From: Selenomonas ruminantium subsp. lactilytica TAM6421 | Lineage (GTDB): Bacteria > Bacillota > Negativicutes > Selenomonadales > Selenomonadaceae | Reading direction: 5' to 3' | Assembly (NCBI RefSeq): GCF_000284095.1 | Contig: NC_017068.1 | Location: forward strand, 2,790,001-2,854,000 | Length of the DNA: 64,000 bases | Part shown: piece after piece, positions 196 to 64,000 of the stretch | How positions within the stretch are numbered: position 1 is the first letter of the stretch | How the letters are laid out: the number at the start of each line of letters is the position of its first letter | Translations under genes and position numbers: made by a program | Notes under the pieces: generated by a model | Databases searched by the model: none | The model's input: only the letters and a program-made list of their open reading frames with translations | What the model was told of the DNA's origin: nothing

Positions 196-254
196 GCTTC
201 GCACTCTCCCTTCATTGTTTATCATTTCATAAACATTGTACCCATTTGCCCGCT

Positions 255-315
255 AAAAAAAAAGGACATTCGTCCAAAATATGTCCTTTTTTTCCGCAAA
301 GAAATGCTTTATAAT
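255..315 (+). promoter_or_regulatory. Candidate crp/fnr promoter with a large palindrome upstream
   Basis: AAAGGACAT (261-269) and ATGTCCTTT (281-289) form a perfect inverted repeat centred near 275. A TATAAT box lies at 310-315, so the palindrome is centred about 47 bases before the expected start site, where Crp/Fnr dimers commonly bind. On the minus strand the same hairpin is followed by nine T, so it could instead act as a terminator in the leader of the divergent permease gene. Operator function is inference. Confidence 0.4.
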
Positions 316-358
316 AAATGGATACATTTTCCCATTCACGACAGAAAGGATTTCGACT

Positions 359-1009
359 ATGGAATTAGACTTCATCCTGGCCCATATGCCAGAAGAAATA
401 CGGCGGCAGACCACCCACAAGACCTATATGAGCGGCGAAACCATCGTGCGCAAGGGCGAAGATGCCAAGCATGTCTACCTCATAACCAAGGGCAGCACCC
501 GCGTCAGCAACGAATTCGCCAGCGGCCAGCGCTACACCTTCGCCGCCTTAGGCGAAGCCGACATCATCGGCGATCTGGATGTATTGGCTGGCAAAAGCGT
601 CTACGCCGCCACCAATGAAGCAGACAGCACCTGCGAAGTCATCGCCATGCGGGCCGAAACCTTCATCCAATGGATGCATCTGGATAACGAATTTGCCGTG
701 GCCGTAGCCCGCATGCTGGCCGCAAAAATGTATCCCACCTCCAACGAAGCCGGCCGCATCAAATTCCTGCCCAGCCTCGAACGCCTCCATAGCTACCTCT
801 TGAAGCGTCTTGGTGATATCGAAACCGACCTCTTCATCCTGCACACCAGCCGCCAGCAGATTGCCGACGACATCGGCACCAGCGTAAAAACCGTCAACCG
901 CGGCGTGCTGAAACTGAAAGAAGCCGGCCTCATCACCCTGTTCCACGGCAAGATCACCATCAACAAAGAACAGCAACAGGCCCTGAAAGACGCCCAGGTC
1001 GAAGAATAA
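359..1009 (+). CDS. Crp/Fnr-family transcriptional regulator
   Basis: A 216-residue protein of usual family length. Residues 1 to about 115 form a cyclic-nucleotide-binding-type beta-roll (KHVYLITKGSTRV, GEADIIGDLDVLAGK). A helical linker follows, then a C-terminal winged helix with the recognition stretch QQIADDIGTSVKTVNR near residue 160-175. There is no N-terminal cysteine cluster of the Fnr iron-sulphur type, so the effector is unknown. The ATG at 359 was chosen because a GAAAGGA ribosome site sits about ten bases before it and because the frame upstream encodes no domain. The nearby palindrome may be its own operator. It is divergent from the NCS2 permease, which could be a target. Confidence 0.85.
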   Translation: MELDFILAHMPEEIRRQTTHKTYMSGETIVRKGEDAKHVYLITKGSTRVSNEFASGQRYTFAALGEADIIGDLDVLAGKSVYAATNEADSTCEVIAMRAETFIQWMHLDNEFAVAVARMLAAKMYPTSNEAGRIKFLPSLERLHSYLLKRLGDIETDLFILHTSRQQIADDIGTSVKTVNRGVLKLKEAGLITLFHGKITINKEQQQALKDAQVEE

Positions 1010-1013
1010 AGCA

Positions 1014-1050
1014 CACAAAAAACGGGAACCTTTCCGAAGAAAGGTTCCCG
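1014..1050 (-). terminator. Intrinsic terminator of the tRNA-Val pair
   Basis: GGGAACCTTTC / GAAAGGTTCCC forms an 11-bp stem with a CGAA-type loop (1023-1050). It is followed on the minus strand by a run of six T. It lies just downstream of the two leftward tRNA genes and between their 3' end and the convergent regulator gene. Confidence 0.8.
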
Positions 1051-1064
1051 TAAACTATGCAATC

Positions 1065-1141
1065 TGGTGCTCGCCGAGGGATTCGAACCCCCGACCCCCT
1101 CCATGTGACGGAGATGCTCTAGCCAACTGAGCTAGGCGAGC
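1065..1141 (-). tRNA. tRNA-Val (anticodon CAC)
   Basis: A 77-base cloverleaf. The acceptor arms GCTCGCC/GGCGAGC are followed by discriminator A and an encoded CCA. The D arm is GCTCAGTTGGCTAGAGC. The anticodon stem TCTCC/GGAGG encloses the loop GTCACAT, which places CAC at 34-36 after U33. The T arm contains GGTTCGAATCC. A35, C36 and discriminator A73 fit valine identity. Base 32 is G, which is unusual, but no other seven-base loop fits the stem. Confidence 0.9.
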
Positions 1142-1145
1142 AACA

Positions 1146-1222
1146 TGGTGGGGTTAACAGAATTCGAATCTGTGACCTCCTCGATGTCAACGAGACACTC
1201 TAACCAACTGAGCTATAACCCC
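1146..1222 (-). tRNA. tRNA-Val (anticodon GAC)
   Basis: A 77-base cloverleaf. The acceptor arms are GGGGTTA/TAACCCC, with discriminator A and an encoded CCA. The anticodon stem TCTCG/CGAGG holds the loop TTGACAT, giving GAC. It is transcribed ahead of the CAC tRNA with a four-base gap, so the pair is one transcript. Together they read GUC/GUU and GUG valine codons. Confidence 0.93.
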
Positions 1223-1248
1223 ATGTCATATATCTAACGACAGGACTT

Positions 1249-1277
1249 AGTATAACACAATGAGTGCCTCGTTGCAA
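1249..1277 (-). promoter_or_regulatory. Sigma-70-type promoter of the tRNA-Val operon
   Basis: On the minus strand TTGCAA (1272-1277) is separated by exactly 17 bases from TATACT (1249-1254). The -10 box lies about 27 bases before the first tRNA, as expected for a stable-RNA promoter. Confidence 0.75.
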
Positions 1278-1356
1278 TAGGGAAGGTCTTAATTTCTTAA
1301 AAATTATTGCCAGTCCCATCAGACATAGCGAATAAATGCCGCTGTCTATGCCATTC

Positions 1357-1529
1357 TCATTGCAATCCCGAAGCATTTTCCACCAACGTGGTCTTCCCCG
1401 TAGCGCTCTGTCCGCGAATAACGGTCACATCAAGCCGGATTTTAAACTGCAATCGTCGGCTGTTTATCACAAGATCATAGCTGCCACGCAAATCTCTCAC
1501 CCAATCTTGTACAGCGTAAGAATCTTCAT
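1357..1529 (-). pseudogene. Remnant of a P-loop ATPase gene
   Basis: Between the tRNA promoter and the HEPN gene the minus strand reads, without a start codon, about 57 residues. They include YAVQDWVRDLRGSYDLV and then VTVIRGQSATGKTTLV, a clear Walker A motif, and a TGA at 1357-1359 follows soon after. The fragment lacks Walker B and all later motifs. It abuts the stop codon of the HEPN gene, so the toxin-antitoxin pair or another rearrangement may have cut an older AAA-type gene. The parent family cannot be named with confidence. Confidence 0.6.
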
Positions 1530-1934
1530 TTACAAATCATTTATAGAACTGCCATATAATTTTTTTATACTCTTTTCCATTTTTTGAAACTCCGGTATAT
1601 ATCTATTCATGATAACATACACTAATTCATTTGCCTTTTTTCCATCATATATATGCGTTAAATCATTTCTTTGATCCAACATTTCCAACCATATATCTTC
1701 ATCAAAAAAATCATAGATTTTATAGGCCTCTTTTATAATAGTCCTGGGCGAACCAGATGCTGCAATAGGACGACCTTCATATTTGATCAATTCCTTAATC
1801 AACTTCCAGCCCAACTCAAACTGCACAAAAAACTTATCAATGATTCCACTAATTATAAATTCATTTTGCAAATCTTGCTCTGATGCTTTTGATAATATAT
1901 GCAAATTACTACAAAAATTATCATACTTTTTCAT
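1530..1934 (-). CDS. HEPN-domain protein of an MNT/HEPN toxin-antitoxin pair (HI0074-like)
   Basis: A 134-residue helical protein of the nucleotidyltransferase substrate-binding (HI0074) family. It carries the HEPN ribonuclease signature R-x4-H at R89-H94 (RNDLTH), plus conserved GWKLIKELI and SPRTIIKEA helices. In known MNT/HEPN systems the HEPN protein is an RNase toxin or substrate-binding partner, and the neighbouring nucleotidyltransferase neutralises it by AMPylation. It is translated after, and overlaps by 14 bases, the upstream nucleotidyltransferase gene, the arrangement of an obligate pair. The gene is AT-rich compared with the regulator upstream, consistent with transfer. Confidence 0.8.
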   Translation of the reverse strand: MKKYDNFCSNLHILSKASEQDLQNEFIISGIIDKFFVQFELGWKLIKELIKYEGRPIAASGSPRTIIKEAYKIYDFFDEDIWLEMLDQRNDLTHIYDGKKANELVYVIMNRYIPEFQKMEKSIKKLYGSSINDL

Positions 1935-2217
1935 ATATAATAACTCCGTCTCTTTTTATTTCGCTTTTTAATTCATCCGATACCTTTTCATCCATATCAA
2001 CAATATCAAAAGTCAAAAGTGTCCATACCTTCTCATCAACATCAAAAGCGAAATTGGTAAAATCACGGCATCCATATACAGCTATATCCACATCGCTTTT
2101 CTCAGCACTATCTTCTCTTGCACGAGAACCGAATAATAAAATTTTTTTCACATCATATTGTCGGGCCAATTTAATCAAATCTGTTTTAATTTTTTCAGGC
2201 AAATCCATATTTGGCAC
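1921..2217 (-). CDS. MNT-type nucleotidyltransferase antitoxin (HI0073-like)
   Basis: A 98-residue minimal nucleotidyltransferase. The catalytic loop GSRARED is at residues 30-36, followed by paired aspartates D42 and D44 (SDVDIAV), the metal-binding residues of the polymerase-beta fold. This is the first gene of the MNT/HEPN pair and overlaps its partner by 14 bases. Members of this group transfer AMP to the HEPN toxin and thereby silence it. All catalytic positions visible here are intact, so an active antitoxin is expected. Confidence 0.82.
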   Translation of the reverse strand: MPNMDLPEKIKTDLIKLARQYDVKKILLFGSRAREDSAEKSDVDIAVYGCRDFTNFAFDVDEKVWTLLTFDIVDMDEKVSDELKSEIKRDGVIIYEKV

Positions 2218-2544
2218 CTCACAACCAATTATCTTCGATATTCTTTTGCAGCTTCAGAAACATCGGCAAGAATCGTTCCTGCGCATCTTTGATTCCCCAC
2301 AATCGCCTTTAGATTAGCCAGTGATTTGAAAAATTCAAATCACATTTGTTATATTTTTCATTAATTCATCATAGAATTCCCTCACGTCATTTTCCTGTAT
2401 AGTCACTCTATCTTGCAGACGCTATAAAAATCGGATTCACTAATTAATTAGCAGTTTGAAAACTGCAATATTTGAATTATTCATCTACTGGTGAATAGTT
2501 TCCCATAATGCTATGTTTATAACCAAACTCAACAAATAATGTTA
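2218..2544. other. Intergenic AT-rich stretch with decayed coding fragments
   Basis: No intact gene. On the minus strand two short frames resemble coding remnants: one ending EFYDELMKNITNVI before a TGA near 2335, and one reading GIKDAQERFLPMFLKLQ that stops near 2230. Neither has a start or a recognisable domain. Small palindromes occur at 2324-2340 (ATTTGAAAAATTCAAAT) and 2451-2466 (GCAGTTTGAAAACTGC). The stretch separates the MNT/HEPN pair from the IS607 element. Confidence 0.4.
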
Positions 2545-2549
2545 AAGTT

Positions 2550-2680
2550 TTTTATAAACTTTGTTGCTCATTAACTGCTCTCGACAAGCCGAGTAAGGGC
2601 AAGCCCTCACCAAGCAAGCGGTCTACGCAGCAACTACCACAACTGGACGTAGCACTACGCCCTCTACCCCGTCTGCCGAA
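2550..2680 (-). ncRNA. Candidate omega (guide) RNA at the right end of the IS607 element
   Basis: Overlapping and following the 3' end of tnpB, the minus strand folds into two compact hairpins: AGGGC-TT-GCCCT and CTCG-GCTTGT-CGAG. Then comes AGCAGTTAATGAGC and an AAAGTTT/AAACTTT stem near 2545-2563. TnpB nucleases use an RNA from exactly this place, with the guide supplied by DNA just outside the transposon end. The limits are estimated and the guide boundary was not determined. Confidence 0.45.
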
Positions 2681-3891
2681 ACATTCGGGAATACTTTCCT
2701 CAGGATCTGAAACGCTCCATTGACATCAGCGTTTATCAACCTGCCAGTATTGGACTTAAAAAGCCCACGATGAACTCGTCTGTTCTTGTCATAGTTTTTC
2801 TTGCCTGGTTCTTCTCCATCCAGAAATGATGTACCGCTCGTATAACTCTCCTCGGTGAGGACGACTGCTATGCCTTTCTCCTTAGCTTTGTACTCTATCA
2901 TCCGGATCAGTCGTGCGAAAGGAAGCTGGACAAAATGCTGGTTCACCCGTTTGGACAGGCGGCTCTCCTGCTTCCATTCCTTGTTCTTGCCTATGACAAT
3001 AGTTGAGATGTCCTGCTGGACACATTCCTTGATTATCAGTTTACTCGCCTTGTGCATGTAATCGTCTATGCGGCGATTCCTCTTGGCGGTCAGCCTGTCG
3101 ATTCGTGCCGAGGAATATCTGCCGGAGGTCATCCTGCAGACGCTTTTCCAGTAGGCAAGTTCTTTATTGTAGAACTGATTTACAGATTTGGGGACTTTGC
3201 CATTCACGATCAGCGGCGCGGCTCCTGTATTGGCTGCCATCGTCAGCAGGTTGTCCACGCCTATGTCAATGCCCGCATACCTGCCGTTCTCATTCATCTG
3301 CGGCACGGGCTTTATGGTGTAGACAATCTCCATGATAATGTATGCGCCGCTAGGAACGAACCTTACCTGCTGGAATGTATCAAATTTCCTGCCAGTATCT
3401 TGGTGATTGACAAATTTTGGCACAACATGGAAGCCTCTGAATGTTTTCGGAAAACGAATCTCACCATTCACCAGCTTGCAGTTTTGGTTTGTCATGACGA
3501 GAATGAATTGGCCATTCTTTTCTTTGTATTTTGGTAGTTTAGGCCGTCCGAGATATTTTTCCTTATGTTGCTTCCAATCGTTGATGGCGGCAAAGAAAGA
3601 TTTCCAGTTCTTGTCGAGCAGGCGAAGCACCTGTTGAGCTGATTGGGCTGTGGGCATAGCTCTGTAATCGGGATATTCCAGGTCATGCTTTAGAATTTGA
3701 TCAAGCTCCTTATATCTAGTCCAATAGCCATCTTTGATGAACCTGCTGCGGACAATGTAATTGGCATGATTATAAAGATTCTTGGCCCTGTGGCAGAAAT
3801 CTCCAATCAGGGAAAAACAAGGGGAGGACGGACGAATAAGATGCTTCTCTACGCGAGTCAGCGATTCATTATCCTTCATCGACATCGTCAA
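2623..3891 (-). CDS. tnpB: TnpB RNA-guided endonuclease of IS607 type
   Basis: A 422-residue TnpB with an N-terminal OrfB-type helical domain and a split RuvC nuclease. The catalytic acids are visible at D209 (YAGIDIGVDNL), E348 (LTEESYTSGTSF) and D389 (LINADVNGAFQIL). The usual CxxC zinc ribbon between motifs II and III is absent; GTSFLDGEEPGKK is found instead, as in a zinc-less TnpB branch. TnpB proteins cut DNA next to a transposon-associated motif using an omega RNA, and favour retention of the element. The gene starts inside tnpA by a 23-base overlap. The first residues are uncertain because several in-frame ATG codons occur (MTMSMKD). Confidence 0.85.
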   Translation of the reverse strand: MTMSMKDNESLTRVEKHLIRPSSPCFSLIGDFCHRAKNLYNHANYIVRSRFIKDGYWTRYKELDQILKHDLEYPDYRAMPTAQSAQQVLRLLDKNWKSFFAAINDWKQHKEKYLGRPKLPKYKEKNGQFILVMTNQNCKLVNGEIRFPKTFRGFHVVPKFVNHQDTGRKFDTFQQVRFVPSGAYIIMEIVYTIKPVPQMNENGRYAGIDIGVDNLLTMAANTGAAPLIVNGKVPKSVNQFYNKELAYWKSVCRMTSGRYSSARIDRLTAKRNRRIDDYMHKASKLIIKECVQQDISTIVIGKNKEWKQESRLSKRVNQHFVQLPFARLIRMIEYKAKEKGIAVVLTEESYTSGTSFLDGEEPGKKNYDKNRRVHRGLFKSNTGRLINADVNGAFQILRKVFPNVSADGVEGVVLRPVVVVAA

Positions 3892-4471
3892 CCGCCTCCT
3901 TGATTTTCTTGAGCCTCCTGCGACTGGAATACAGTTTCATAGAATAGCAGTGCAGGAGATTCTCAATCTCCTCAAACACTTCCTGTGTGTCCAGCTTCAC
4001 GGAGCCAACCTCGCTCATGACCACTATTTCGCAGTTGTACTTCTGGAACAGGTGATGGAAAAGTTCAAATCCCACGCGGGAAAGTCTATCTTTATAGGTA
4101 ACCACCACTCTCTCAACATGGCCTTCAAGGACTTCATCCAGCATCTCGAAAAAATCTTTGCGCTTCTCAAAACTTATCCCGCTGGCAATATCGGAATATA
4201 TGCCTGAAATGGTGTAGCCATTGGAAAAACAGAACTGCTTCAATAAGGAAATCTGATTTTCAAGGTCTGGCTTCTGCTTGGCTGTCGATACACGAGCGTA
4301 AATAAATGTTTTCCGCTTCATGTCCTTATTCAAAAAGCCGTACACATCTTCTTCATTGTAGTCATAACGCTTGTTGGGCAGGACAGTCACTCGGATTATG
4401 CCAGTTTTGACATACTTGGTCAGTGTAGGGCGTGTTATTCCAAGGACACGGAGCACATCTTTGGCTAACAT
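3869..4471 (-). CDS. tnpA: IS607-family serine recombinase (transposase)
   Basis: 200 residues. Residues 1-50 are a MerR-like helix-turn-helix (MLAKDVLRVLGITRPTLTKY). Residues 55-200 are a resolvase-type catalytic domain with the nucleophile S62 in YARVSTAKQ and the conserved DRLSR arginine motif. IS607 recombinases place their DNA-binding domain at the N-terminus, the reverse of classical resolvases. The order matches that here. The protein catalyses excision and integration of the element. All catalytic residues seen are intact. Confidence 0.9.
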   Translation of the reverse strand: MLAKDVLRVLGITRPTLTKYVKTGIIRVTVLPNKRYDYNEEDVYGFLNKDMKRKTFIYARVSTAKQKPDLENQISLLKQFCFSNGYTISGIYSDIASGISFEKRKDFFEMLDEVLEGHVERVVVTYKDRLSRVGFELFHHLFQKYNCEIVVMSEVGSVKLDTQEVFEEIENLLHCYSMKLYSSRRRLKKIKEAVDDVDEG

Positions 4472-4567
4472 GATACAATCCTCCTTCCTTGGCTTGATTA
4501 TACCATATATTATATAAAATATGAATTTTAATTTAATATTTTTAATGAATCATTACACTATATAAAA

Positions 4568-5470
4568 TCACTTACATAAAAATCCTATATTATCTCTTAT
4601 TGCATTATCTATCTCATCCAGCAATGCATATCTTTTACGATAATTAGCTCGTTTTCTAGTAGGAACTTCTTCCATAGTTTTGCGATATTCTGTCAAAGGC
4701 AACTCATAGAAACGCTTATCTTTACAAGGAATCCCACCTGACTCTGCCCAAAAGTCACTAAAGCTGTTCTTCAACTTGCGATCGGTACGTATATGATTCA
4801 TAGCGTAATAACCGTAATTTGTCACAGCATAGATATGTTTTAAGCCAAGAGCTTTTGCAACCTCTTGTGTAGCATGCAAAATCAAATTTTTGGTACGATA
4901 AGCATGACACCGTTTCGTTAATTGCTTAATAACTTCGCGGGCATTTTCCATGTTAGGCCCTTGCATTGCCCCAATCCACAAAGACCACTCTCCACTCTTA
5001 TCTGGCGCTATCCAAAACATGATCTGATATAATATACCACTATCAGCAGCCACCAGTCTAATAGAAAGTAATCCTTCTTTGCGTTGTCCTGGATGATACA
5101 TCAACTCTAAATGAAGAGTCTCTCCGTCATCAGAAGATTCCCAAAGAATTTTTTCCTTTTTCGAATACAAGTCAATAATCTCGTTTTCTTTGAGATTATC
5201 AATCAAAAACATCATATGTTTCTCGACTAGATCTGCCCGCTCCTCAAAGGTTGATTTATTATAAAAAAAAGCTCTCGTAGGCTGCTCATATACAAACGGA
5301 TATATATCAGCAATTTTAGCCAGCAACTCACTGCTGACAAAAAATTTTTCCAACCGCTTCATGCGCAACGGATGAAGCATGCAGCGCCCCCGAAAAACTA
5401 TATAGCGCCGAAACTCACGAGGATTATCCAAATTATATATTTTTTTTCCTATTTTACCAAAATCTAACAT
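4568..5470 (-). CDS. DUF535 (VirK/YbjX-like) protein
   Basis: A 300-residue soluble protein of the DUF535/VirK family. Recognisable blocks are SLWIGAMQGPNMENAREVI, LTKRCHAYRTKNLILHA, VTNYGYYAMNHIR and the C-terminal RKRANYRKRYALLDEID. Family members in enterobacteria (VirK, YbjX) are linked to outer-membrane or virulence protein function and antimicrobial peptide resistance, but the biochemical activity is unknown. Here the gene closes a leftward AT-rich run that includes a membrane protein and two glycosyltransferases, which suggests a cell-surface role. The length matches the family norm. No signal peptide is seen. Confidence 0.8.
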   Translation of the reverse strand: MLDFGKIGKKIYNLDNPREFRRYIVFRGRCMLHPLRMKRLEKFFVSSELLAKIADIYPFVYEQPTRAFFYNKSTFEERADLVEKHMMFLIDNLKENEIIDLYSKKEKILWESSDDGETLHLELMYHPGQRKEGLLSIRLVAADSGILYQIMFWIAPDKSGEWSLWIGAMQGPNMENAREVIKQLTKRCHAYRTKNLILHATQEVAKALGLKHIYAVTNYGYYAMNHIRTDRKLKNSFSDFWAESGGIPCKDKRFYELPLTEYRKTMEEVPTRKRANYRKRYALLDEIDNAIRDNIGFLCK

Positions 5471-5506
5471 AACAACCTCTTATCAGTATGAAAATTCTTC
5501 TAAATT

Positions 5507-6163
5507 TCAATTTCTTAACGCATATATGTCACTAACTACACTTTTTCTAATTTGCAATCCCGAAAAATTAATTATCCATCCTAAAAACAATATTATAAAT
5601 ATCTCCAAAACCACGCCACATAGATATATTAATAATTCATCACCTATTGATAAACTATCAAAAATATGATTTAACAACGTATCATATCCCAAGCCAGTAG
5701 CAGTAAAAACCAAGGTTATAGCCCCCAAAAAGAGCTTCATAGCCCACTTAATTATTTCGTATAGCATTGGCAAAAAAGTATTATCGACTTCATATATCGA
5801 TAATTCACGTTTCAATTGATATGTACGCCATCTTTTAAAATGATTCTTCTCCCTTTCATAATATAATCTTCTATTTCTAGCAGTTCCCAGTCTATTATTA
5901 TACACATATATAATATATGCACAAAATATAAACAAGCCCACAAAGAGTGACTTTAAAATATGTATAACTCCATATGACTTCATCTCACTAATAGATACCA
6001 TTACTGTCAATCCAGCAAAAATTACACATAAAATCAACAGTATAATTATACATTTATAATTTCTTTTCATTGTTTTACAACTAATTTCATTTCTAAATTG
6101 TCTACTGTATTCATTTTTTGTTATAATGATCAGTAATTCTAAAAAAACTAACAGTGACAGCAT
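5507..6163 (-). CDS. Membrane protein of unknown function
   Basis: 218 residues with about five hydrophobic segments, near residues 1-14, 38-58, 66-90, 140-160 and 180-200. Between the third and fourth lies a basic, aromatic cytoplasmic stretch (RRLYYEREKNHFKRWRTYQ). No family was recognised. The gene abuts the GT4 glycosyltransferase with a one-base gap, so it is almost certainly cotranscribed and may act in glycan export or modification. Base composition is strongly AT-rich like its neighbours on either side, unlike the ugd genes further upstream. Confidence 0.6.
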   Translation of the reverse strand: MLSLLVFLELLIIITKNEYSRQFRNEISCKTMKRNYKCIIILLILCVIFAGLTVMVSISEMKSYGVIHILKSLFVGLFIFCAYIIYVYNNRLGTARNRRLYYEREKNHFKRWRTYQLKRELSIYEVDNTFLPMLYEIIKWAMKLFLGAITLVFTATGLGYDTLLNHIFDSLSIGDELLIYLCGVVLEIFIILFLGWIINFSGLQIRKSVVSDIYALRN

Positions 6164-6164
6164 C

Positions 6165-7238
6165 CTATACCCTTTCCACTATTCTTGTATAAATCATATT
6201 CATATTAGCCATCCACTTACTCATAGTAAAGTTATCATATATTTTTTTCTTAGCTTTCTTTCCCATCTCATTGCATAATATATTATCACTTCTTAGCAGT
6301 CGTAATTTTTCTGCTATTTCATCTGCGCTACCGGGCTTTACCAGAATTCCATCTACATTATCATCAATAATTTCTATCTGCGCACCATTATTAGAAGCAA
6401 TCACTGGTTTGCCATGATACATCGCCTCACAAATGGACAAGCCAAAGGCCTCTCTAACTATCGATGGACACACCATCACATCTACATCGTCATAAAACGA
6501 GTCCATATCGCTAACATATCCCAGCCATTCTATATTGTCACATTTTTTTCCGCTAAGATACCTTTTTATTTTTTGAGCGTATTCTGTATTATCATCACCA
6601 GCAATTTTTAACACACTTCCATGATCCGCCATCTGCATAAACGCATCGATCAGATATAGCAAGCCTTTATTTTCAACTATCCGCCCTGCATAACCAACAA
6701 CAAAGTCATTCGCATCTTTCTTGCGCTGAATAACGGCATGAGCATCAGTTTTTTCTACGCCATTATAAACCACATATGTTTTTTGCTTCATCCAGTCTGG
6801 CATATCCAGTTCCTGACACTTTTTTACCAGATTAGACACGCATATAAATGCATCTATCCTTTTGTAAATAATCTTATGAATAATATCTTTTTTATTTCTT
6901 ATCGCATTATGTCTATATGCAATAAGTTTTACAGGCATCCCTATTATAGCCAGTATTATTAATGGAATTACTCTTCCTGTATGTGTATGTACAACTTGTA
7001 TATCATTCTTTTGTATAAAACTTCTCAACCCCTTGATAAATCCCCATAGATTTATCCACTTTACCTTCAAAGAACATACAGTGCCAACCTGTTCAAACAT
7101 TGGCCGCAATACTTTTTCATTACCATCTATTACAACATAAACACCATATCCATTTTTTTTTAGTGTTTTGCACATTGACAAAGCGGCTGTTTCACCACCG
7201 CCCCATACTTTTGCTGATACTATGTGCAAAACATTCAT
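6165..7238 (-). CDS. Glycosyltransferase, family GT4
   Basis: 357 residues with the GT-B fold of GT4. The N-terminal domain has the donor-side loop AKVWGGGETAALSM, a central FICVSNLVKK serine motif, then YNGVEK, GYAGRIVENKGLLYLI and the C-terminal AFGLSICEAMYHGKPVIA with the catalytic glutamate pair. GT4 enzymes transfer a sugar from a nucleotide donor with retention of configuration, at the inner face of the membrane for surface glycans. The start overlaps the end of the upstream GT17 gene by four bases. Donor and acceptor are unknown. Confidence 0.88.
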   Translation of the reverse strand: MNVLHIVSAKVWGGGETAALSMCKTLKKNGYGVYVVIDGNEKVLRPMFEQVGTVCSLKVKWINLWGFIKGLRSFIQKNDIQVVHTHTGRVIPLIILAIIGMPVKLIAYRHNAIRNKKDIIHKIIYKRIDAFICVSNLVKKCQELDMPDWMKQKTYVVYNGVEKTDAHAVIQRKKDANDFVVGYAGRIVENKGLLYLIDAFMQMADHGSVLKIAGDDNTEYAQKIKRYLSGKKCDNIEWLGYVSDMDSFYDDVDVMVCPSIVREAFGLSICEAMYHGKPVIASNNGAQIEIIDDNVDGILVKPGSADEIAEKLRLLRSDNILCNEMGKKAKKKIYDNFTMSKWMANMNMIYTRIVERV

Positions 7239-8176
7239 TTACTTTCCTCCAATCTTTTTTCATATTCGCCTACCATAATCCCATATCGATCTGCCAGCCA
7301 TTGTATTTGTGGAACATTCATTGTATCAATCGAATGTCGATTAAGTTTTTCATTTCGCCACCAAATCAATCCTTCTGCCAACTGTTCTTTCACAAAATCT
7401 TCCTGCTCCTTCGGAGGTAATTTTAGTACAGGGTTGTTTACACCACCTGAGATTGATTTGATTTTGTTAAGTACAGCTTTAGCCCCACCCATAGATGAAA
7501 AATGCCAACCATTTTCTATCATCGGTAATTTATTGCGTAAATCTCGCAATCTCTGCGGTTCAAGCATATTTTTATATAATGTAATAATTGTCCCACACCA
7601 ATGAGATGCACATTCGTAATTCACATAGAATTCAAACATACGTTGCTCTGATACTACAGGACTCTTCTCTAAAAATTTCTGTATACTATCTTGTTCAGCT
7701 CCAATCATTAACGAACGAATAAAGCAACGTAAATTGCGGGATACCCCATTAATCCCACTACGCTCTGCAACATACCCAAACGTACGCCAAGTACGCACAT
7801 CCACTTTATCTTCTTGAATTTTCTTCAGCACTTCAGGATCTGGGAATTCATCAATATCCCCTATCATCACGATGTCATCTGGTTGGCAATCTGTCAAACC
7901 ACGGGAAATACAATTGCGCTGAAATATCTGAATTGACCAATTATCCTTACACTCTATTTTATCTGTTACTTGAATATACCTTATTTTATCCGCATACTGC
8001 GAAAATCGCTCCTTATTTTCTGCGAAATAAAAAGGCTTAGGTTTATTTTGAAAAGTGCGATCTGACTCTACTATTATAAAGTAATCGACAATATCATAGA
8101 GCATTTTAAGACGCCATTCCAACAACTCAAACTCTTTATAAAATGTAAAGCCATCATATATTTTTCTACGCACCAT
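7235..8176 (-). CDS. Glycosyltransferase, family GT17
   Basis: 313 residues resembling beta-1,4-N-acetylglucosaminyltransferase III-type proteins of family GT17. Conserved features are IYDGFTFYKEFELLEWRL at the N-terminus, DYFIIVESDRTFQNKPKP, and a DxD-like acidic cluster GDIDEFPD at residues 106-113. GT17 is best known from eukaryotic N-glycan bisecting enzymes. Bacterial members sit in capsule and LPS clusters and probably add GlcNAc or a related sugar. The gene lies between the epimerase and the GT4 gene on one leftward transcript. Confidence 0.85.
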   Translation of the reverse strand: MVRRKIYDGFTFYKEFELLEWRLKMLYDIVDYFIIVESDRTFQNKPKPFYFAENKERFSQYADKIRYIQVTDKIECKDNWSIQIFQRNCISRGLTDCQPDDIVMIGDIDEFPDPEVLKKIQEDKVDVRTWRTFGYVAERSGINGVSRNLRCFIRSLMIGAEQDSIQKFLEKSPVVSEQRMFEFYVNYECASHWCGTIITLYKNMLEPQRLRDLRNKLPMIENGWHFSSMGGAKAVLNKIKSISGGVNNPVLKLPPKEQEDFVKEQLAEGLIWWRNEKLNRHSIDTMNVPQIQWLADRYGIMVGEYEKRLEESK

Positions 8177-8205
8177 AATTTATACTCCTAACAACTACTA
8201 TAATT

Positions 8206-9210
8206 TTACACACCATAATAACCCCTATACCAAGCAGCAAATTTTTCCAGTCCATCTGCAATAGTAGTAGCAGGACGGAAGTCAAAATCACGTTCTAATT
8301 CACTTACATCAGCATATGTCTGGTAAACATCCCCGGGCTGCATAGGCAGGTATTCTTTTTCCGCAGTCTTTCCCAATGCCTTTTCCAAAGTATCTATGAA
8401 ATCCATGAGTTTTACCGGGCTATTGTTACCGATATTGTATACCTTGTATCGATCGCCTGCACCGTCGGCCTTTGGCGGATTACACAACATATGCTCAATG
8501 CCGGTAACAATATCATCCACATAGGTAAAATCACGAAGCATATCACCATTGTTATAAATCTTGATAGCCTTGCCATCCCGGATAAGATTGGCAAATTTGA
8601 AGTATGCCATATCCGGGCGCCCATAAGGGCCGTACACAGTAAAGAAACGCAATCCCGTAGCTGGAATATCATAAAGATGGCTATAAGTAAAGGCCATCAA
8701 TTCATTGGACTTTTTCGTTGCAGCATAGAGACTGATGGGATGATCTACATTATCCGTGGTGCTAAAAGGTGTTTTCTCCTGATTGCCATACACAGAAGAA
8801 CTGGATGCGAATAACAAATGCTCCACCGGGTTATGGCGGCAAGCCTCCAGAATATTAAAGAACCCAATTACATTGGAGTCGATATAGCTGCGGGGATGGT
8901 CAATACTATAACGTACGCCTGCCTGGGCACCTAAGTTTACTACAATATCCGGCTTTTCATCCGTGAACAGCGTCCTAACTGCGTCCTCATCAGCCAAATC
9001 ACCTTTGATGAATTTATAACGTGGAAAAGTGCGCAAAATTGCCAGACGACTTTTCTTTAGAGACACGTCATAATAATCATTGCAGTTATCAAAGCCAATG
9101 ATTTCTGCCCCGGCCTCCAAAAGCCTCTTAGACAAGTGAAAGCCAATAAAACCAGCACCTCCGGTAATCAAAACTTTTTTTCTTTTATCAAATTCTTTAT
9201 AGCTAGCCAA
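8206..9210 (-). CDS. UDP-glucuronate 4-epimerase, copy 1
   Basis: An NAD-dependent short-chain epimerase of 334 residues: the Rossmann motif GGAGFIG is near residue 17, followed by SSSSVYGNQ and the catalytic YAATK. The best match is the CapI/GAE group, which interconverts UDP-glucuronate and UDP-galacturonate, in line with the UDP-glucose dehydrogenase gene directly upstream. A TTG at 9208-9210 is chosen as start. An AAGGGAG site lies eight bases before it, and the second copy at 44.4 kb has the same TTG and gives the same 1005-base length. The frame is open further upstream into the ugd gene, but that part is not conserved. Confidence 0.85.
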   Translation of the reverse strand: MASYKEFDKRKKVLITGGAGFIGFHLSKRLLEAGAEIIGFDNCNDYYDVSLKKSRLAILRTFPRYKFIKGDLADEDAVRTLFTDEKPDIVVNLGAQAGVRYSIDHPRSYIDSNVIGFFNILEACRHNPVEHLLFASSSSVYGNQEKTPFSTTDNVDHPISLYAATKKSNELMAFTYSHLYDIPATGLRFFTVYGPYGRPDMAYFKFANLIRDGKAIKIYNNGDMLRDFTYVDDIVTGIEHMLCNPPKADGAGDRYKVYNIGNNSPVKLMDFIDTLEKALGKTAEKEYLPMQPGDVYQTYADVSELERDFDFRPATTIADGLEKFAAWYRGYYGV

Positions 9211-9223
9211 TTTACTTGCTCCC

Positions 9224-10390
9224 TTAATCCCTGCTGAAAATATCTCTGGTAAAAACTTTTTCTTTGACATCGGCCAACGAATCATGCCAACGATTGGCTA
9301 CAATTACATCACTACGTTCCTTGAACTCCGTCAGATCCCGCACTACTTCTGACCGGAAGAAATTATCCTCTTTCAAGGTCGGCTCATAAACAATACAGGG
9401 AATGCCCTTAGCCTTTATACGTTTCATGATGCCCTGGATGGCACTGGCACGGAAGTTATCCGAAGCTGTCTTCATCGTCAGGCGGTAAATTCCAACCACC
9501 TTCGGCTGTTTCGCGATAATCGCATCTGCGATAAAATCCTTACGGGTACGATTGGCCTCAACCACAGCCTCAATCAGATTCTGAGGCACATCCTGATAGT
9601 TTGCTAAAAGCTGCTTAGTGTCTTTGGGCAGGCAATAACCGCCATAGCCAAAGGATGGATTATTATAAAAATCACCAATCCGTGGATCAAGGCTGACTCC
9701 ACGGATAATCTCGCCTGTATCCAGCCCCCGAGCGGCTGCGTAGGAATCCAGCTCATTAAAATAAGCCACGCGCAAAGCCAGATAGGTATTGGCAAAGAGC
9801 TTGATTGCTTCTGCTTCAGTGGAGCCTGTAAACAAAATAGGGATATCGGTCTTCACTGCACCATCCGCCAAAAGCTGGGCAAAGGTGCGAGCCCGCTCTG
9901 AGGATTCCCCCACAATAATGCGGGATGGATGCAAATTATCATAAAGAGCCTTGCCCTCGCGCAAAAATTCCGGTGAAAAAATGATATTCTCTGTCTGATA
10001 CCGCTTTTTCATCCGTTCCGTATACCCAACCGGCACTGTAGACTTAATTACCATAACTGCCTGGGGATTTATGTCCAGAACTTCCTCAATCACCATTTCC
10101 ACGGAAGACGTATCAAAGAAATTTTTTTCCGGGTCATAATTCGTCGGTGTGGATATGATTACAAAATCCGCATCTGCAAACGCCTCATGCGCATCTATGG
10201 TAGCACGGAAATCCAACTGCTTATGTGTCAGAAAATCCGAAATATCTTCATCCACAATAGGAGAAACTCCACTATTCAGCATCTCCACCTTTGCCGGTAC
10301 AATATCCAAAGCCACAACCTCATTATGCTGTGCCAGCAAGATCCCGTTTGACAGGCCCACATAACCTGTACCTGCAATTGCGATTTTCAT
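9224..10390 (-). CDS. ugd: UDP-glucose 6-dehydrogenase, copy 1
   Basis: 388 residues, full length for the short Ugd class. The N-terminal NAD fold has [12 protein letters not shown]. The active-site cysteine is C253 in [13 protein letters not shown]. The central STVPVGYTE and FSPEFLREG blocks bind substrate. The enzyme oxidises UDP-glucose to UDP-glucuronate in the cytoplasm and supplies the epimerase encoded 13 bases downstream. It is the first gene of this leftward glycan operon. A second copy at 46.2-47.4 kb is about nine-tenths identical by eye. A TATAAT at 10555-10560 on the minus strand is a possible -10 box. Confidence 0.93.
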
Positions 10391-58724: not shown

Positions 58725-59108
58725 GTGATTCGCATCGAAAACAAACTGCAAAACTTACGGGAACTGCATGATATGAAGCAGCAGGATGTAGCCAAAGCCT
58801 TAGGTGTCAGCCGTTCTACTTATGCCAATTACGAATCAGGCCGCCGTGCACCTGATATTGACACGCTGATGCGCTTAGCTGATATATACGGCATTACGCT
58901 GGACGAGCTGACCGGCCATCAAGTGAAGCCGGCCAATGGCATCAAGTTGACCAATCAGGCCATGCGCCTGCTCAAAAGTTTCAACCAACTGCCGGCCCCT
59001 GCCCAGGAATGGTATATTTCCCATATGGCCTTTGATGTTAAAGCCGTAAAATATTCACCAGAGCTGCAGCCCGCTGTTGTGGCAGAAAAATTAAACGCAA
59101 AAAAATAG
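58725..59108 (+). CDS. XRE-family transcriptional regulator
   Basis: About 125 residues. The N-terminal helix-turn-helix is LRELHDMKQQDVAKALGVSR with STYANYESGRRAPD, a classical Cro/CI HTH_3. The C-terminal half (NGIKLTNQAMRLLKSFNQLP) is helical and not assigned. The start is unsettled: GTG at 58725 overlaps the AAGGAG ribosome site, while the spacing favours ATC at 58734, a very rare start codon. Divergent from the capsule operon with a shared palindrome, it probably controls that operon. Confidence 0.85.
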   Translation: MIRIENKLQNLRELHDMKQQDVAKALGVSRSTYANYESGRRAPDIDTLMRLADIYGITLDELTGHQVKPANGIKLTNQAMRLLKSFNQLPAPAQEWYISHMAFDVKAVKYSPELQPAVVAEKLNAKK

Positions 59109-59152: not shown

Positions 59153-60493
59153 TTATTCTACTGCCAATGCAGCTTCTTTTTCCTCCGCATTGAGCTGTGC
59201 CATATCCTTACGCACAGCACCGTTCCAATGATATTTCACCGTCAATACCAACAGGGCTGCGGCGGCCATGAAGGCGGCCATGATGTAGTAACCCCAGTCA
59301 AAGGCACCAGTTAGGCCATGTACCCAGGCCATCATATTGGGACCTACCCAGCCGCCGATATTGCCGCAGGAGTTAATGAGGGCCACGGATGCTGCGGCAG
59401 CGGGGCCGGTCAGGAAGGTGGTCGGTATCGTCCACCATACACCCATGGCGGCGTAGATGCCGATAGCAGACAGGCAGACCAGGAACAGGGCCATGCCCAT
59501 GCTGCCGGCATGGGGAGACATGCCCAAGCCGATAGCACCTACGAGCAGAGCACCGGCCACATGCCAAACCTTGTCACCGGTTCTCGTGGAAGTATGGCCG
59601 ATGATGACCTGTACCACCAGTGCTGCCAGCATAGGAATGGCGATGGCGCCGCCCAGCAGGGACGTAGACCAGCCGGACAGGCCTTTGAGGACGGTGGGCA
59701 TCCAGAAGTTGAAGCCCCAGAAACCAACTACCCAGAGGAAATAAATCAGGCAGAGTTTCAATACCTTCGGTTCACAGAAAGCCTGCCAAACCGTATATTT
59801 CTTGACGCGGTGCATCGCGGCCTGTTCTTCTTCATATACCTTGTTCAGATAAGCCTTTTCCTCAGCATTGAGCCAATGTGCCTGATCCGGACGATCCTTC
59901 ACGGCAAAGAAGAAATAGACGGCAAAGGCCAGTGCAGGAAGTGCTTCGAGAATGAAGAGTTCCTGCCAGCCATGCAGGCCGAACAGGGAAGTTTCCAACA
60001 GGACGCCGGCCAGGGGCGCGCCGATAATCGTAGAAATCAACAGGGACGTGAGCATCAGGGACGTTGCTCTGGCCCGCTCCCCGGCAGCAAACCAGCGCGG
60101 GAACAGGACCGAATAGATGACCGGATAGAGGCTGGCTTCAGAGGCACCCAGCAGGAACCGGCACAAGTAGAATTCCGACGGCGTTTTTACAAAGGCCATA
60201 TACACGCACACCAATCCCCAGGTGAACATGATGCGGGCAATCCATTTCGTGGCGGAGAATTTCGCCGCCACTAGGGAACCGGGCACTTCAAAGATCAGAT
60301 AACCCACGAAGAAAATACCGGCGCCCATACCGAAGATTTCCGGCGTGAGCCAGGGCATATCTGCTGTCATGGTCAGTTTCGCATAGGCCACATTGACGCG
60401 GTCAATGCAGGCGATAATGGATACCAGGAATACCGGCAGGATGATGCGCCAGTCCCGTTTCCGTTTGAGTTGTTGCAAGTCTACAGCTTCCAT
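59153..60493 (-). CDS. MFS transporter, anion:cation symporter (ACS) type
   Basis: 446 residues, twelve membrane helices. The ACS signature ACIDRVNVAYAKL lies in helix 1, with RFLLGASEASLYPVI in helix 4 and a central loop of charged residues. ACS members usually import organic anions such as hexuronates, galactonate or tartrate. Here the gene is preceded by a T-box leader that senses an uncharged tRNA, so the substrate may instead be linked to amino-acid supply. The start follows AGGGAGGA. It stands alone. Confidence 0.87.
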   Translation of the reverse strand: MEAVDLQQLKRKRDWRIILPVFLVSIIACIDRVNVAYAKLTMTADMPWLTPEIFGMGAGIFFVGYLIFEVPGSLVAAKFSATKWIARIMFTWGLVCVYMAFVKTPSEFYLCRFLLGASEASLYPVIYSVLFPRWFAAGERARATSLMLTSLLISTIIGAPLAGVLLETSLFGLHGWQELFILEALPALAFAVYFFFAVKDRPDQAHWLNAEEKAYLNKVYEEEQAAMHRVKKYTVWQAFCEPKVLKLCLIYFLWVVGFWGFNFWMPTVLKGLSGWSTSLLGGAIAIPMLAALVVQVIIGHTSTRTGDKVWHVAGALLVGAIGLGMSPHAGSMGMALFLVCLSAIGIYAAMGVWWTIPTTFLTGPAAAASVALINSCGNIGGWVGPNMMAWVHGLTGAFDWGYYIMAAFMAAAALLVLTVKYHWNGAVRKDMAQLNAEEKEAALAVE

Positions 60494-60537
60494 AATGATT
60501 CCTCCCTAAAATAATCATAATTCCATAATAAATAAAA

Positions 60538-60834
60538 AAAGTCCGTCCCTCGAAAGGGACGGACTCGTTTATCCGTGTTACCACCCAAATTCCCTGCCAA
60601 AACAGGGCACTCTGCTACGTACCATCATACGCGGCTCCTATAACGGGAAGCCCCCGTGACCACTTACTGGTTCCATCAGTAAAACCGTTCAGCGCCATGC
60701 CTCAAGGATGATTTTCCATTTCTGCTGGACTATCGGCTTACACCATACCCGATTCGCTAGGAGTCTGCCCGGAAATGTACTCTTTCCTCTCATAGACTGT
60801 ATCTATCATGTGGATTGTTGTTTTCTTGAATACA
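60538..60834 (-). promoter_or_regulatory. T-box riboswitch leader, probably isoleucine-specific
   Basis: Read on the minus strand: the Stem I loop-E half AGAGTA, the distal loop GGTGTAAGCC, the return strand GAAATG and the specifier loop GAAAATCATCC. There AUC followed by A is the likely codon (isoleucine). A conserved TTTGGGTGGTAACACGG T-box follows, whose TGGT pairs with the tRNA ACCA end. It ends with a terminator AGTCCGTCCCT/AGGGACGGACT plus seven T (60534-60572). Uncharged tRNA would favour the antiterminator and switch on the MFS gene. Confidence 0.85.
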
Positions 60835-60840
60835 AGTATT

Positions 60841-60869
60841 ATCTTAGCACCGGAGTGTAAAGTTGTCAA
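60841..60869 (-). promoter_or_regulatory. Promoter of the T-box/MFS transcript
   Basis: On the minus strand TTGACA (60864-60869), 17 bases, TAAGAT (60841-60846). It lies five bases behind the YoeB-type toxin stop codon. Confidence 0.78.
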
Positions 60870-60873
60870 CCCA

Positions 60874-61149
60874 TTATTTGTCCTGATAATGTCCCTTGCA
60901 AGAAAATAATATCAAATTCCCAGCTTCATCCGCATTATAAACCAGCCTATTTTTCTCGTCTATGCGACGGCTCCATGCAGGGTAATAGCGCAAGGGCTCC
61001 GGCTTGCCTTTGCCCTTGCGCAGACCATTGCGTTCAATATCCTTTATCAGCTCATTGATTCGCTTCAATGTTTTTTTATCCTCGACCTGCCATGACACAT
61101 ACTCGGACCAGGCTGTCGGAGTCCAAATGAGATTAATCTCAGACATCAT
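60874..61149 (-). CDS. YoeB/Txe-family toxin
   Basis: 91 residues: LIWTPTAWSEYVSWQVEDKK, INELIKDIERNGLRKGKGKPEPL and the C-terminal SRRIDEKNRLVYNADE followed by FSCKGHYQDK. The Arg/His/Tyr set of YoeB (R-R, ...GHY) is kept, so ribosome-dependent mRNA cleavage is expected. It overlaps the antitoxin gene by 11 bases and ends just before the T-box promoter. Confidence 0.9.
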   Translation of the reverse strand: MMSEINLIWTPTAWSEYVSWQVEDKKTLKRINELIKDIERNGLRKGKGKPEPLRYYPAWSRRIDEKNRLVYNADEAGNLILFSCKGHYQDK

Positions 61150-61414
61150 CCACCTCTAACAATCTATGCTGCTGCCCCAAGCCTGCTTTATATTCAGCAA
61201 AACTACGATCGAGTTTTGCCATATATTCTGCATTATTGCGGGCCTGTTCTCGAATGGTGAATAAGTCTGATGGAACTGCATGATTGCGAACGATCGTCTT
61301 CAATAGCATAGAAACTACTGCAGAAGTCGTCAGTCCCAAATCTGCCAGGACCTTATCAGACTGGATTTTCAAATCCTCATCGATACGGATATTTATGGAT
61401 TTTGTCGTTGCCAT
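61139..61414 (-). CDS. RelB/DinJ-type antitoxin of the YoeB-like toxin
   Basis: 91 residues. SINIRIDEDLKIQSDKVLADL and GLTTSAVVSMLLKTIV form the ribbon-helix-helix of the RelB/DinJ group, with an acidic, toxin-binding C-terminus. YoeB toxins often pair with YefM/Phd-fold antitoxins, so the RelB/DinJ partner is a hybrid pairing. It is the first gene of the pair, after AGGAGGGGAG. Confidence 0.85.
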   Translation of the reverse strand: MATTKSINIRIDEDLKIQSDKVLADLGLTTSAVVSMLLKTIVRNHAVPSDLFTIREQARNNAEYMAKLDRSFAEYKAGLGQQHRLLEVDDV

Positions 61415-61472: not shown

Positions 61473-63161
61473 CTATATAATTTCTTTCTCCACTAAATCG
61501 CCCACCTTTTGCGCTAATGAAGACAGGTCTTGCAGGCAGATATAATCTTCTCCATAAATTCTGCTGGCGGCATCAGTCACTAATTTCGCGTCCATGACAC
61601 TGTTGACCAGCGCCATAACCTGAAAGCCCTGCCGTTTAAGCTCCTTGACGCCCTGTGCTGCATCTGTAACCGCAGCTTCTCCTCCATAAAGGCTGGCTGG
61701 TTTTATCCCCTGTCTGGGTATATCATGGTCATCGCTGGGACTGGCATCGGTCAGGATAAAGATGATCTTTTTCCGAGGTTCCGCAGCCTTGCCCCAAAGT
61801 TCCGGAACCGCCCGCAAGGCCAGGCCATCGCGATTCCAGCCCTGCGTCTTGTAAGCCAGCAGCCCTTCTGCCGAACTTTCGCCAAAGTCCTTCAATCTTT
61901 GCAATACTGTGCAGCCGCCCTGACTGAAAAAGGCCACGGCCATCAAGGGAATCCCCGCCCGTCTTAAGGCCTCCGCAATCAGATAGGCCTGATTGGCGAT
62001 AACCGCCTGCCTGCCCTGCCGGGAAGCGGAGGCATCCAACAGCAGCAACACGGAAAAATCGCTGTAATGGGCAGGCTCCAAGACGGAAAACACGCGGTTT
62101 TCCCCCATGACTGCGCCCCGCCAGATTCGTCCGGCAGCCAGCCGCCCGCTGCGAGCCGGCAGTTCCATGGGCTGACGATGTACCTGCAGTGCATTTTGCA
62201 ATCGCCGGCTGAACTCGTTCAGCTCCGTACGGAATTGTACCTGATGCTGGGCAAAATATTCCTGATTCTCTGGCTGCACTTCGCCCTTTTCCGCTGTAAA
62301 CCACAGGCGAACCTGCCCATGAACGCCCCGGCAAAGCACGCCTTCAAGACTTGCCCGACGCTCTGCGGTAAATAAGGCAGGTCCATAGCGGCGTGTCAGT
62401 TCCCCATCATCCGGCAAAGGATTTCCCTGCGCCGGCCAAAAGCTTTTGCTGTTTCCCTCCGCAATATTACCATTCAGCACCCAGCTTCCATTCCCCTCAT
62501 CCCTATAGCGGCTATGTATAGGCAGCACCTTGAGCAGCAGTGCCTTAAGCGCTGGAGGCATTGCAAAGTGCATTACATTACGCGGATAGGTTTGCCAATG
62601 CCAACGGAAGAACTTGCAGATAATCCCTTCCATAGCGGCAATGATTTCCTCCGTGCTCATGTTGCCGGAAAAGGCAAGGGCTTTATATAATTTTCTATCC
62701 CAAGGATTGAGAAGATTTACTTTTTCTCCCAAGACTTCCCGGCAGCGGGCGCATTTGAGGCTATGGGCCAGTTCCTGCCGCATCATGAGTTGTTGAAAAG
62801 ACAGGTCCACATCCTCCCGCAAAAACCGCTCAGCATGCTGGCGCCGCAAATCTTCCAATACCGGGCGCGCTGGCAGTTCCCGCGCATAGGCCGCCGACTC
62901 AAGTCCCAGCCAGAATAGTTCCGTATAAAGTTCCCCGAGCAGGGATTTATCCAACGTCCCCCGCAGATAGGCCGCAAGTTTTTCTGCATCATAATGACGG
63001 TGAACCAGCCCTACAATGGAATTGAGGTATAGATCCGGTTCACCGTCCTGATAGAACGCCAAAAACTCCGGCCGGAAGCCATAGGCTCCCGCCGCTGTCC
63101 AGACAATATTGAGAGCCCGCTTCTGCCGCAGGGCTCTGAGGGATTCATAAGCCATCGCCAT
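61473..63161 (-). CDS. VWA-domain protein partnered with a MoxR ATPase
   Basis: 562 residues from ATG 63161, which overlaps the MoxR stop (TGATG). A helical N-terminal region contains a CARC-type motif (LKCARCREVLG). The C-terminal von Willebrand A domain has the MIDAS motif LLLDASASRQGRQ, later ILTDASPSDDHD and a conserved GWNRDG. MoxR/VWA pairs act as chaperone-like systems that load metals or assemble complexes. The client is unknown; no CO-dehydrogenase or nitric-oxide-reductase gene is in view. Confidence 0.82.
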   Translation of the reverse strand: MAMAYESLRALRQKRALNIVWTAAGAYGFRPEFLAFYQDGEPDLYLNSIVGLVHRHYDAEKLAAYLRGTLDKSLLGELYTELFWLGLESAAYARELPARPVLEDLRRQHAERFLREDVDLSFQQLMMRQELAHSLKCARCREVLGEKVNLLNPWDRKLYKALAFSGNMSTEEIIAAMEGIICKFFRWHWQTYPRNVMHFAMPPALKALLLKVLPIHSRYRDEGNGSWVLNGNIAEGNSKSFWPAQGNPLPDDGELTRRYGPALFTAERRASLEGVLCRGVHGQVRLWFTAEKGEVQPENQEYFAQHQVQFRTELNEFSRRLQNALQVHRQPMELPARSGRLAAGRIWRGAVMGENRVFSVLEPAHYSDFSVLLLLDASASRQGRQAVIANQAYLIAEALRRAGIPLMAVAFFSQGGCTVLQRLKDFGESSAEGLLAYKTQGWNRDGLALRAVPELWGKAAEPRKKIIFILTDASPSDDHDIPRQGIKPASLYGGEAAVTDAAQGVKELKRQGFQVMALVNSVMDAKLVTDAASRIYGEDYICLQDLSSLAQKVGDLVEKEII

Positions 63162-64000
63162 CACCCCACGAAGAAATGTTCCCTGCCCCAATCCGCTGGC
63201 AGGCGCAGGGCGATGATATCCTCCACCAAGGCCCGTTCCTGACTGTCGAAGCATTTGCCGGTCAGTCCCATGGCGAGCGCCTGTCCCGCTGTAAGTCCCA
63301 GCCGGATAAGCCGCAGGGCTTTCAACAGGCCGCGCAGGTCCAACGCCCGGCCGGAGATTTCTTTGGCCTCGTACTTCTGCCGCAGGTCGAGGAACAGGGC
63401 GGCCAAAGTGCGGGCCATATCCGCCCGCAAAGCCGGGAATTCATACTGCAGCAGGGAAATCAGTTCAGCCTCCCCGGGTACGGGCATATGCAGCACCACG
63501 AAACGGGAGAGCAGGGCTTCGTTGAGTTCCCGGGTGCCGCCATAGCCATAGTTCATAGTGGCGATAAAGCGGGTGGCCGGATGCAGCTGCAAGCGTTCAT
63601 AGCCTGGCACCTCCAACTGCCGCCGATGGTCCAGCAGGGAATGGAGCACTGCCAGCGCTTCGTTGCGGGCCATATTGATCTCGTCGAGAACGCAGATGCC
63701 GCCCGCCGTGACACATTCATGGACCGGGCCGGGACGGAAACAGACTTCTCCCCCCTTGAAGGTATCCATGCCAATCAGGTACGAAGCATCCACATCGATA
63801 TGGAAAGACACATTCCAAATAGGTCTGCCCAGCAGCAACGCCAGATTCTCTGCCAGGATATTCTTGCCTGTGGCTTTAGGCCCTGTCAGCAGGAGATTTG
63901 CCCCCGCCAACAGAGCCGCTAAAGCTTCTTCTAATATTTCCTTGCCAAAATAGGGATAGCGGGGAACATTTACCGCCCGCTTCCCCTGCCAGGAATTTTC
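63161..64000 (-). CDS. MoxR-family AAA+ ATPase (5' end beyond the window)
   Basis: 280 residues are visible, entering from the right edge in frame. The Walker A motif is TGPKATGKN, with unusual Ala after Pro-Lys. The Walker B is GGICVLDEINMARNEALAVL, followed by sensor 1 RFIATMNYGYGGTRELNEALLSRF, read in two pieces, and an all-helical lid. It works with the VWA protein encoded next, overlapping it by one base. The N-terminus is outside the window. The function is chaperone-like by family; the client is unknown. Confidence 0.88.
   Translation of the reverse strand, partial: ENSWQGKRAVNVPRYPYFGKEILEEALAALLAGANLLLTGPKATGKNILAENLALLLGRPIWNVSFHIDVDASYLIGMDTFKGGEVCFRPGPVHECVTAGGICVLDEINMARNEALAVLHSLLDHRRQLEVPGYERLQLHPATRFIATMNYGYGGTRELNEALLSRFVVLHMPVPGEAELISLLQYEFPALRADMARTLAALFLDLRQKYEAKEISGRALDLRGLLKALRLIRLGLTAGQALAMGLTGKCFDSQERALVEDIIALRLPADWGREHFFVG

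Follow-up and report, generated by a model that had tools for sequence, protein, structure and literature searches.

T-box control of transporter genes is well documented, and the carriers concerned include members of the LIVCS/BrnQ, ABC, APC, NSS and NhaC types as well as a Lys-type MFS carrier (PMC2494555). In that survey, isoleucine T-boxes were present on ABC and LIVCS carriers, the only MFS case was under the control of a lysine T-box, and the ACS type of MFS carrier was not listed (PMC2494555). No description of an isoleucine T-box on an ACS carrier emerged from a search of the literature; an earlier survey table may still list one. ACS-type MFS carriers are commonly annotated as sugar-acid carriers.

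In the window (the whole stretch of 64,000 nucleotides that was analysed), a complete T-box leader of 296 bases was found on the minus strand at positions 60539-60834, upstream of a gene that encodes an MFS transporter of the ACS/SLC17 type (59153-60493 on the minus strand, 446 amino acids) and lies directly behind the leader. The segment from stem I to the antiterminator (60552-60802, minus strand) matched the Rfam T-box family RF00230 over the full model (positions 1-219) with 112.1 bits (E 5.8e-24), exceeding the gathering score of 93, and the full T-box layout claimed in the original prediction was thereby borne out by a covariance-model search. All of the other elements are on the same strand. 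A promoter-like site (TTGACA-17-TAAGAT with a TG preceding the -10, sigma-70-like, as judged by consensus match only) is located at 60841-60869. The specifier loop GAA-A-AUC-A spans 60709-60716, with the isoleucine codon AUC at 60710-60712. The T-box sequence GGGUGGUAACACGG at 60573-60586 has a UGGU bulge complementary to the 3′ ACCA of tRNA-Ile. An intrinsic terminator followed by a U tract (60539-60566) overlaps the antiterminator, and the two structures are mutually exclusive; the terminator fold was calculated at -19.9 kcal/mol (z -5.0) versus -8.3 for the antiterminator helix. A ribosome-binding site, AGGGAGGAA, was read directly from the sequence at 60499-60507. The leader thus belongs to RF00230 by its full-model score above gathering, by a specifier in register with a genomic tRNA, and by the bulge and competing terminator. 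The extent of 60538-60869 proposed originally is correct.

The amino acid specificity of the leader was evaluated against the other T-boxes of the same genome. Nine were found, and the genes behind them, named from the sequences of the open frames that follow the leaders, are aroG (DAHP synthase), the MFS gene, pheS, valS, thrS, trpS, the trp operon, glyQS and ileS. The specifier was read by a register rule, namely 3 bases and then a 9-base stretch with GAG at its end. Under this rule the other eight leaders gave UAC for aroG, UUC for pheS, GUC for valS, ACC for thrS, UGG for both trpS and the trp operon, GGC for glyQS and AUC for ileS, which in 8/8 cases is the codon expected from the gene (Tyr, Phe, Val, Thr, Trp, Trp, Gly and Ile, respectively); the MFS leader reads AUC. 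Because all eight of the other leaders read the expected codon, the register is calibrated and the isoleucine specifier is independent of any single alignment, and the alternative registers AAU and UCA are ruled out. The genome's own tRNA-Ile, with anticodon GAU, discriminator A and 3′ end A-CCA, fits the UGGU bulge of the leader. The calibrated register and tRNA-Ile(GAU) together confirm the isoleucine codon that had been proposed in the specifier loop, and the specificity of the leader is for isoleucine. Isoleucine T-boxes in this genome are on ileS and the MFS gene only; ilvC and brnQ are without a T-box.

The leader and the transporter occur together in dozens of species belonging to several genera. 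In a scan that drew on 60 relatives, every orthologue of at least 73% identity, full or partial, for which upstream DNA was scanned (loci L011-L035 and L037) had a T-box directly upstream, as did the orthologue in 19 of 20 further genomes of the family, so that the joint conservation of leader and gene, suggested earlier as a check, was indeed found. The exception among the 20 is G129, the genome of which contains no T-box anywhere. Named loci of at least 68% identity all hold the T-box motif with AUC, with the exceptions of S. artemidis (L073), the orthologue of which lacks a T-box, and L074, which has a T-box with extra A residues in the specifier loop that the specifier pattern did not score; of the 39 named loci that were scored, 38 have the AUC specifier. 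A maximum-likelihood tree was built from 51 transporters; those with a T-box form exactly one clade on it (29 rows, support 100/99), requiring one change, and none of 500 shuffles reached so few. The leader therefore has a single origin on the tree, having been gained once and then kept. An alignment of 17 leaders showed no variation in the AUC columns, whereas the bases on both sides of them vary, and 31 of 48 consensus pairs show a kept double change. The neighbours of the boxed gene differ from genus to genus. A conserved pair with an invariant AUC, covarying stems and changing neighbours is not as would be expected of a relic or a recent capture.

The orthologue in G129 is 72% identical, and from its matching identity and extent we read G129 as S. 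artemidis; it belongs to the same genus group as G029. Because G129 is devoid of T-boxes genome-wide, the favoured view is that S. artemidis lost this T-box along with all the others, as opposed to never having had it. No T-box match was obtained genome-wide in three Selenomonadaceae (G129, G029 and G033, the searches of G029 and G033 having used stricter filters), versus 5 to 19 in most relatives, which looks like a lineage-wide loss of T-box control.

As to the source of the leader, the MFS and ileS leaders of this genome share an identical 16-base hairpin, GCGTATGATGGTACGT, which is missing from the other seven. Since it is common to these two leaders only, the simplest origin of the MFS leader is probably a copy of an ileS-type leader.

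The sole Pfam match of the transporter is MFS_1 (PF07690, E 5.4e-37); the LIVCS/BrnQ domain PF05525 was not found in the Pfam scan, BrnQ being encoded by a separate gene. The D-galactonate transporter subfamily model TIGR00893 was matched with E 1.2e-73 but at 248 bits, compared to a curated cut-off of 395, and so the protein has kinship with this model but falls short of classification as a D-galactonate carrier. These two matches, together with 40% identity to TtuB, place the protein in ACS/SLC17, in agreement with the ACS-type identity originally assigned. The H+/carboxylate site of this family (D-R in TM1 and E in TM4) is present as D31, R32 and E119, which are invariant in an alignment of 37 sequences. 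More broadly, the proton/carboxylate residues D46, R47, Y79, R126, E133, N393 and W373 of DgoT (residue roles taken from PMC6532931) are retained as D31, R32, Y65, R112, E119, N374 and W354, whereas the DgoT hydroxyl binders Q164, Q264 and S370 are replaced by L151, Y251 and G351. The lysines of the dicarboxylate carriers GarP, GudP and TtuB are replaced as well, by Y/H347 and M350. Retention of the proton/carboxylate residues and loss of the hydroxyl binders and lysines, combined with the gene context of the sister transporters described below, suggests that the substrate is a fairly hydrophobic monocarboxylate.

Sister transporters with about 50-63% identity are unboxed, as no T-box at the gathering score was found on any of 15, and at 9 of these 15 loci they adjoin genes for the E1, E2 or E3 components of a 2-oxoacid dehydrogenase, accompanied by lipoate genes. 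In Megasphaera, Colibacter and Anaeroglobus, the sister gene is flanked by those for E1 beta and E2. The E1 alpha of the sisters is nearer to pyruvate than to branched-chain dehydrogenases and the complex is of the PDH/acetoin kind; because it is not of the branched-chain kind, the substrate of the sisters may be pyruvate. At three loci (L084, L088 and L091, about 200-9250), the operon consists of a 3-hydroxyisobutyrate-dehydrogenase-like gene, a metallo-beta-lactamase-fold gene, E1a, E1b, MFS, E2 and E3 with a lipoyl domain, followed by a lipA-like gene in L088 and L091 and a tdh-like gene in L084.

The genome containing the window has brnQ, ilvA and ilvC, and thus neither the uptake nor the synthesis of isoleucine seems to be missing. 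A motif search of 18 regions upstream of brnQ in 11 genomes yielded no T-box (0/18), and the idea that in relatives brnQ might be under T-box control instead was ruled out. At L076, which is apparently the same genome as G101, ilvC, ilvB and ilvD come next after the boxed MFS gene and share its strand, and ilvC has a consensus promoter-like site of its own. This adjacency was found in 1 of 44 genomes; as a hint to the substrate it is only suggestive, and adjacency to ilvC as a general rule is ruled out. In G024, ilvC is 12 kb away, behind the his operon. Genes resembling leuC and leuD adjoin ilvC in Selenomonas. At G028:C1:1076897 and G039:C1:31272, unlike in Selenomonas, ilvC is under its own isoleucine T-box.

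Several other features were seen around the transporter and elsewhere in the window. A toxin-antitoxin pair (60874-61414, minus strand) is directly upstream of the leader, with a Txe/YoeB-type toxin at 60874-61149 and a RelB/DinJ-type antitoxin at 61139-61414, and tandem genes at 61473-63910 on the minus strand encode a MoxR-like AAA_5 ATPase and a protein with a VWA domain. An XRE/RstR-like repressor gene (58725-59108, plus strand) is convergent with the transporter gene, and two tandem tRNA-Val genes with anticodons CAC and GAC are at 1065-1222 on the minus strand. In relatives, genes for methyl-accepting chemotaxis proteins are often near the transporter (L042, L057, L073 and others; 17 loci in one cluster), which could be due to chance in genomes rich in such genes or could indicate a linked chemosensor.

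The interpretation that we favour, with a probability of roughly 0.6, is that a T-box reading tRNA-Ile(GAU), gained once, controls an H+-coupled importer of isoleucine or, more likely, of a monocarboxylate that contains the isoleucine skeleton or feeds isoleucine. The anatomy and specificity of the leader are seen at the locus, and the attenuation response is carried over from the known T-box mechanism. Under isoleucine shortage, the AUC of the specifier loop and the UGGU of the antiterminator would both pair with uncharged tRNA-Ile; in the tRNA-bound leader the terminator at 60539-60566 would not form, and the MFS gene would be transcribed. The product would be an H+-coupled carrier of organic anions working in the import direction, and our best guess for the cargo is a 2-oxo acid, such as 3-methyl-2-oxovalerate or 2-oxobutyrate, that would then be converted to isoleucine. 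With the isoleucine switch added to the pocket residues and the context of the sisters, a 2-oxo acid of this kind would be the first choice and isoleucine itself the second. Several points stand against this explanation: TtuB, the closest relative to which a substrate has been assigned, carries tartrate; the ilvCBD adjacency is confined to 1 of 44 genomes, and ilvC has its own promoter-like site there; the complex beside the sisters is of the PDH/acetoin kind; and neither uptake nor synthesis of isoleucine seems to be missing from the genome. We offer more tentatively the extension of this interpretation to the ACS clade found in Selenomonadaceae and Megasphaera, the members of which would then serve specifically to import isoleucine-skeleton 2-oxo acids under the control of tRNA-Ile.

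Import of isoleucine itself would accord with the finding that a transporter under T-box control as a rule carries the amino acid for which its specifier codes (PMC2494555), with the hydrophobic nature of the pocket changes, and with the presence in ACS/SLC17 of the VGLUT glutamate carriers, which match the MFS protein. However, BrnQ is already present in this genome and in many of the genomes with a boxed MFS gene, and an acidic residue for the alpha-amino group was not identified in the MFS protein. We also know of no ACS member that is a branched-chain amino acid carrier, and we regard isoleucine as the less likely cargo. Less probable still is a hydroxylated or dicarboxylic precursor of isoleucine, such as citramalate or 2,3-dihydroxy-3-methylvalerate: TtuB points toward such a substrate, as does the occurrence in Selenomonas of the leuC/leuD-like genes beside ilvC but of no citramalate synthase, whereas the replacement of the TtuB/GarP/GudP lysines and the DgoT hydroxyl binders argues against it, and citramalate is weakened in particular by loss of the TM10 lysine.

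The original prediction had left two possibilities, an unrecognised carrier of branched-chain amino acids or 2-keto acids and the capture of the leader by an unrelated gene, with a leftover of a deleted ilv or ileS gene as a further concern. The carrier is favoured by the invariant specifier, by the one ilvCBD adjacency, by the residues of the pocket and by the 2-oxoacid dehydrogenase genes near the sisters. T-boxes do move between genes (PMC2494555), and the hairpin in common with the ileS leader would suit a capture or a remnant. However, the pair is kept in many species across genera with an invariant specifier in varying surroundings, and a remnant is ruled out because ileS, with its own T-box, and ilvC are intact elsewhere in the genome; capture or remnant is accordingly very improbable. 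MFS carriers are able to run in either direction, so the protein could in principle export an organic anion, such as a 2-oxo acid by-product, during isoleucine starvation. We give this equally little credence, as D31, R32 and E119 coincide with the site for H+ symport in DgoT and there would be little point in an exporter that is induced when its own product family runs short.

If the substrate is a branched-chain 2-oxo acid, the transporter would provide a route of isoleucine-carbon salvage in rumen and gut anaerobes, and if the proposal for the clade is true, isoleucine-skeleton 2-oxo acids would be a new substrate class in the ACS/SLC17-like family. The fixed isoleucine T-box gives one ACS clade a physiological assignment that is beyond the reach of homology alone.

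In comparison with known systems, the locus resembles the transporters surveyed in PMC2494555 in having a T-box right before a transporter gene, and differs from them in the ACS type of the carrier. The ileS leader of the same genome (L009) has the same specifier loop, hairpin and class of mechanism but controls isoleucyl-tRNA synthetase, whereas the MFS leader controls a transporter. TtuB of Agrobacterium vitis, an ACS carrier of tartrate, has the DRVN/DRVNI and GxxEA motifs in common with the MFS protein, which differs in having Met350 in place of the TM10 lysine, in the absence of tartrate genes nearby, and in its T-box control. DgoT, the D-galactonate:H+ symporter of E. coli (SLC17/ACS), is 18% identical, and its proton/carboxylate residues are conserved in the MFS protein whereas its sugar-hydroxyl binders are not. 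The leader is ordinary in mechanism, and its target is unusual and conserved.
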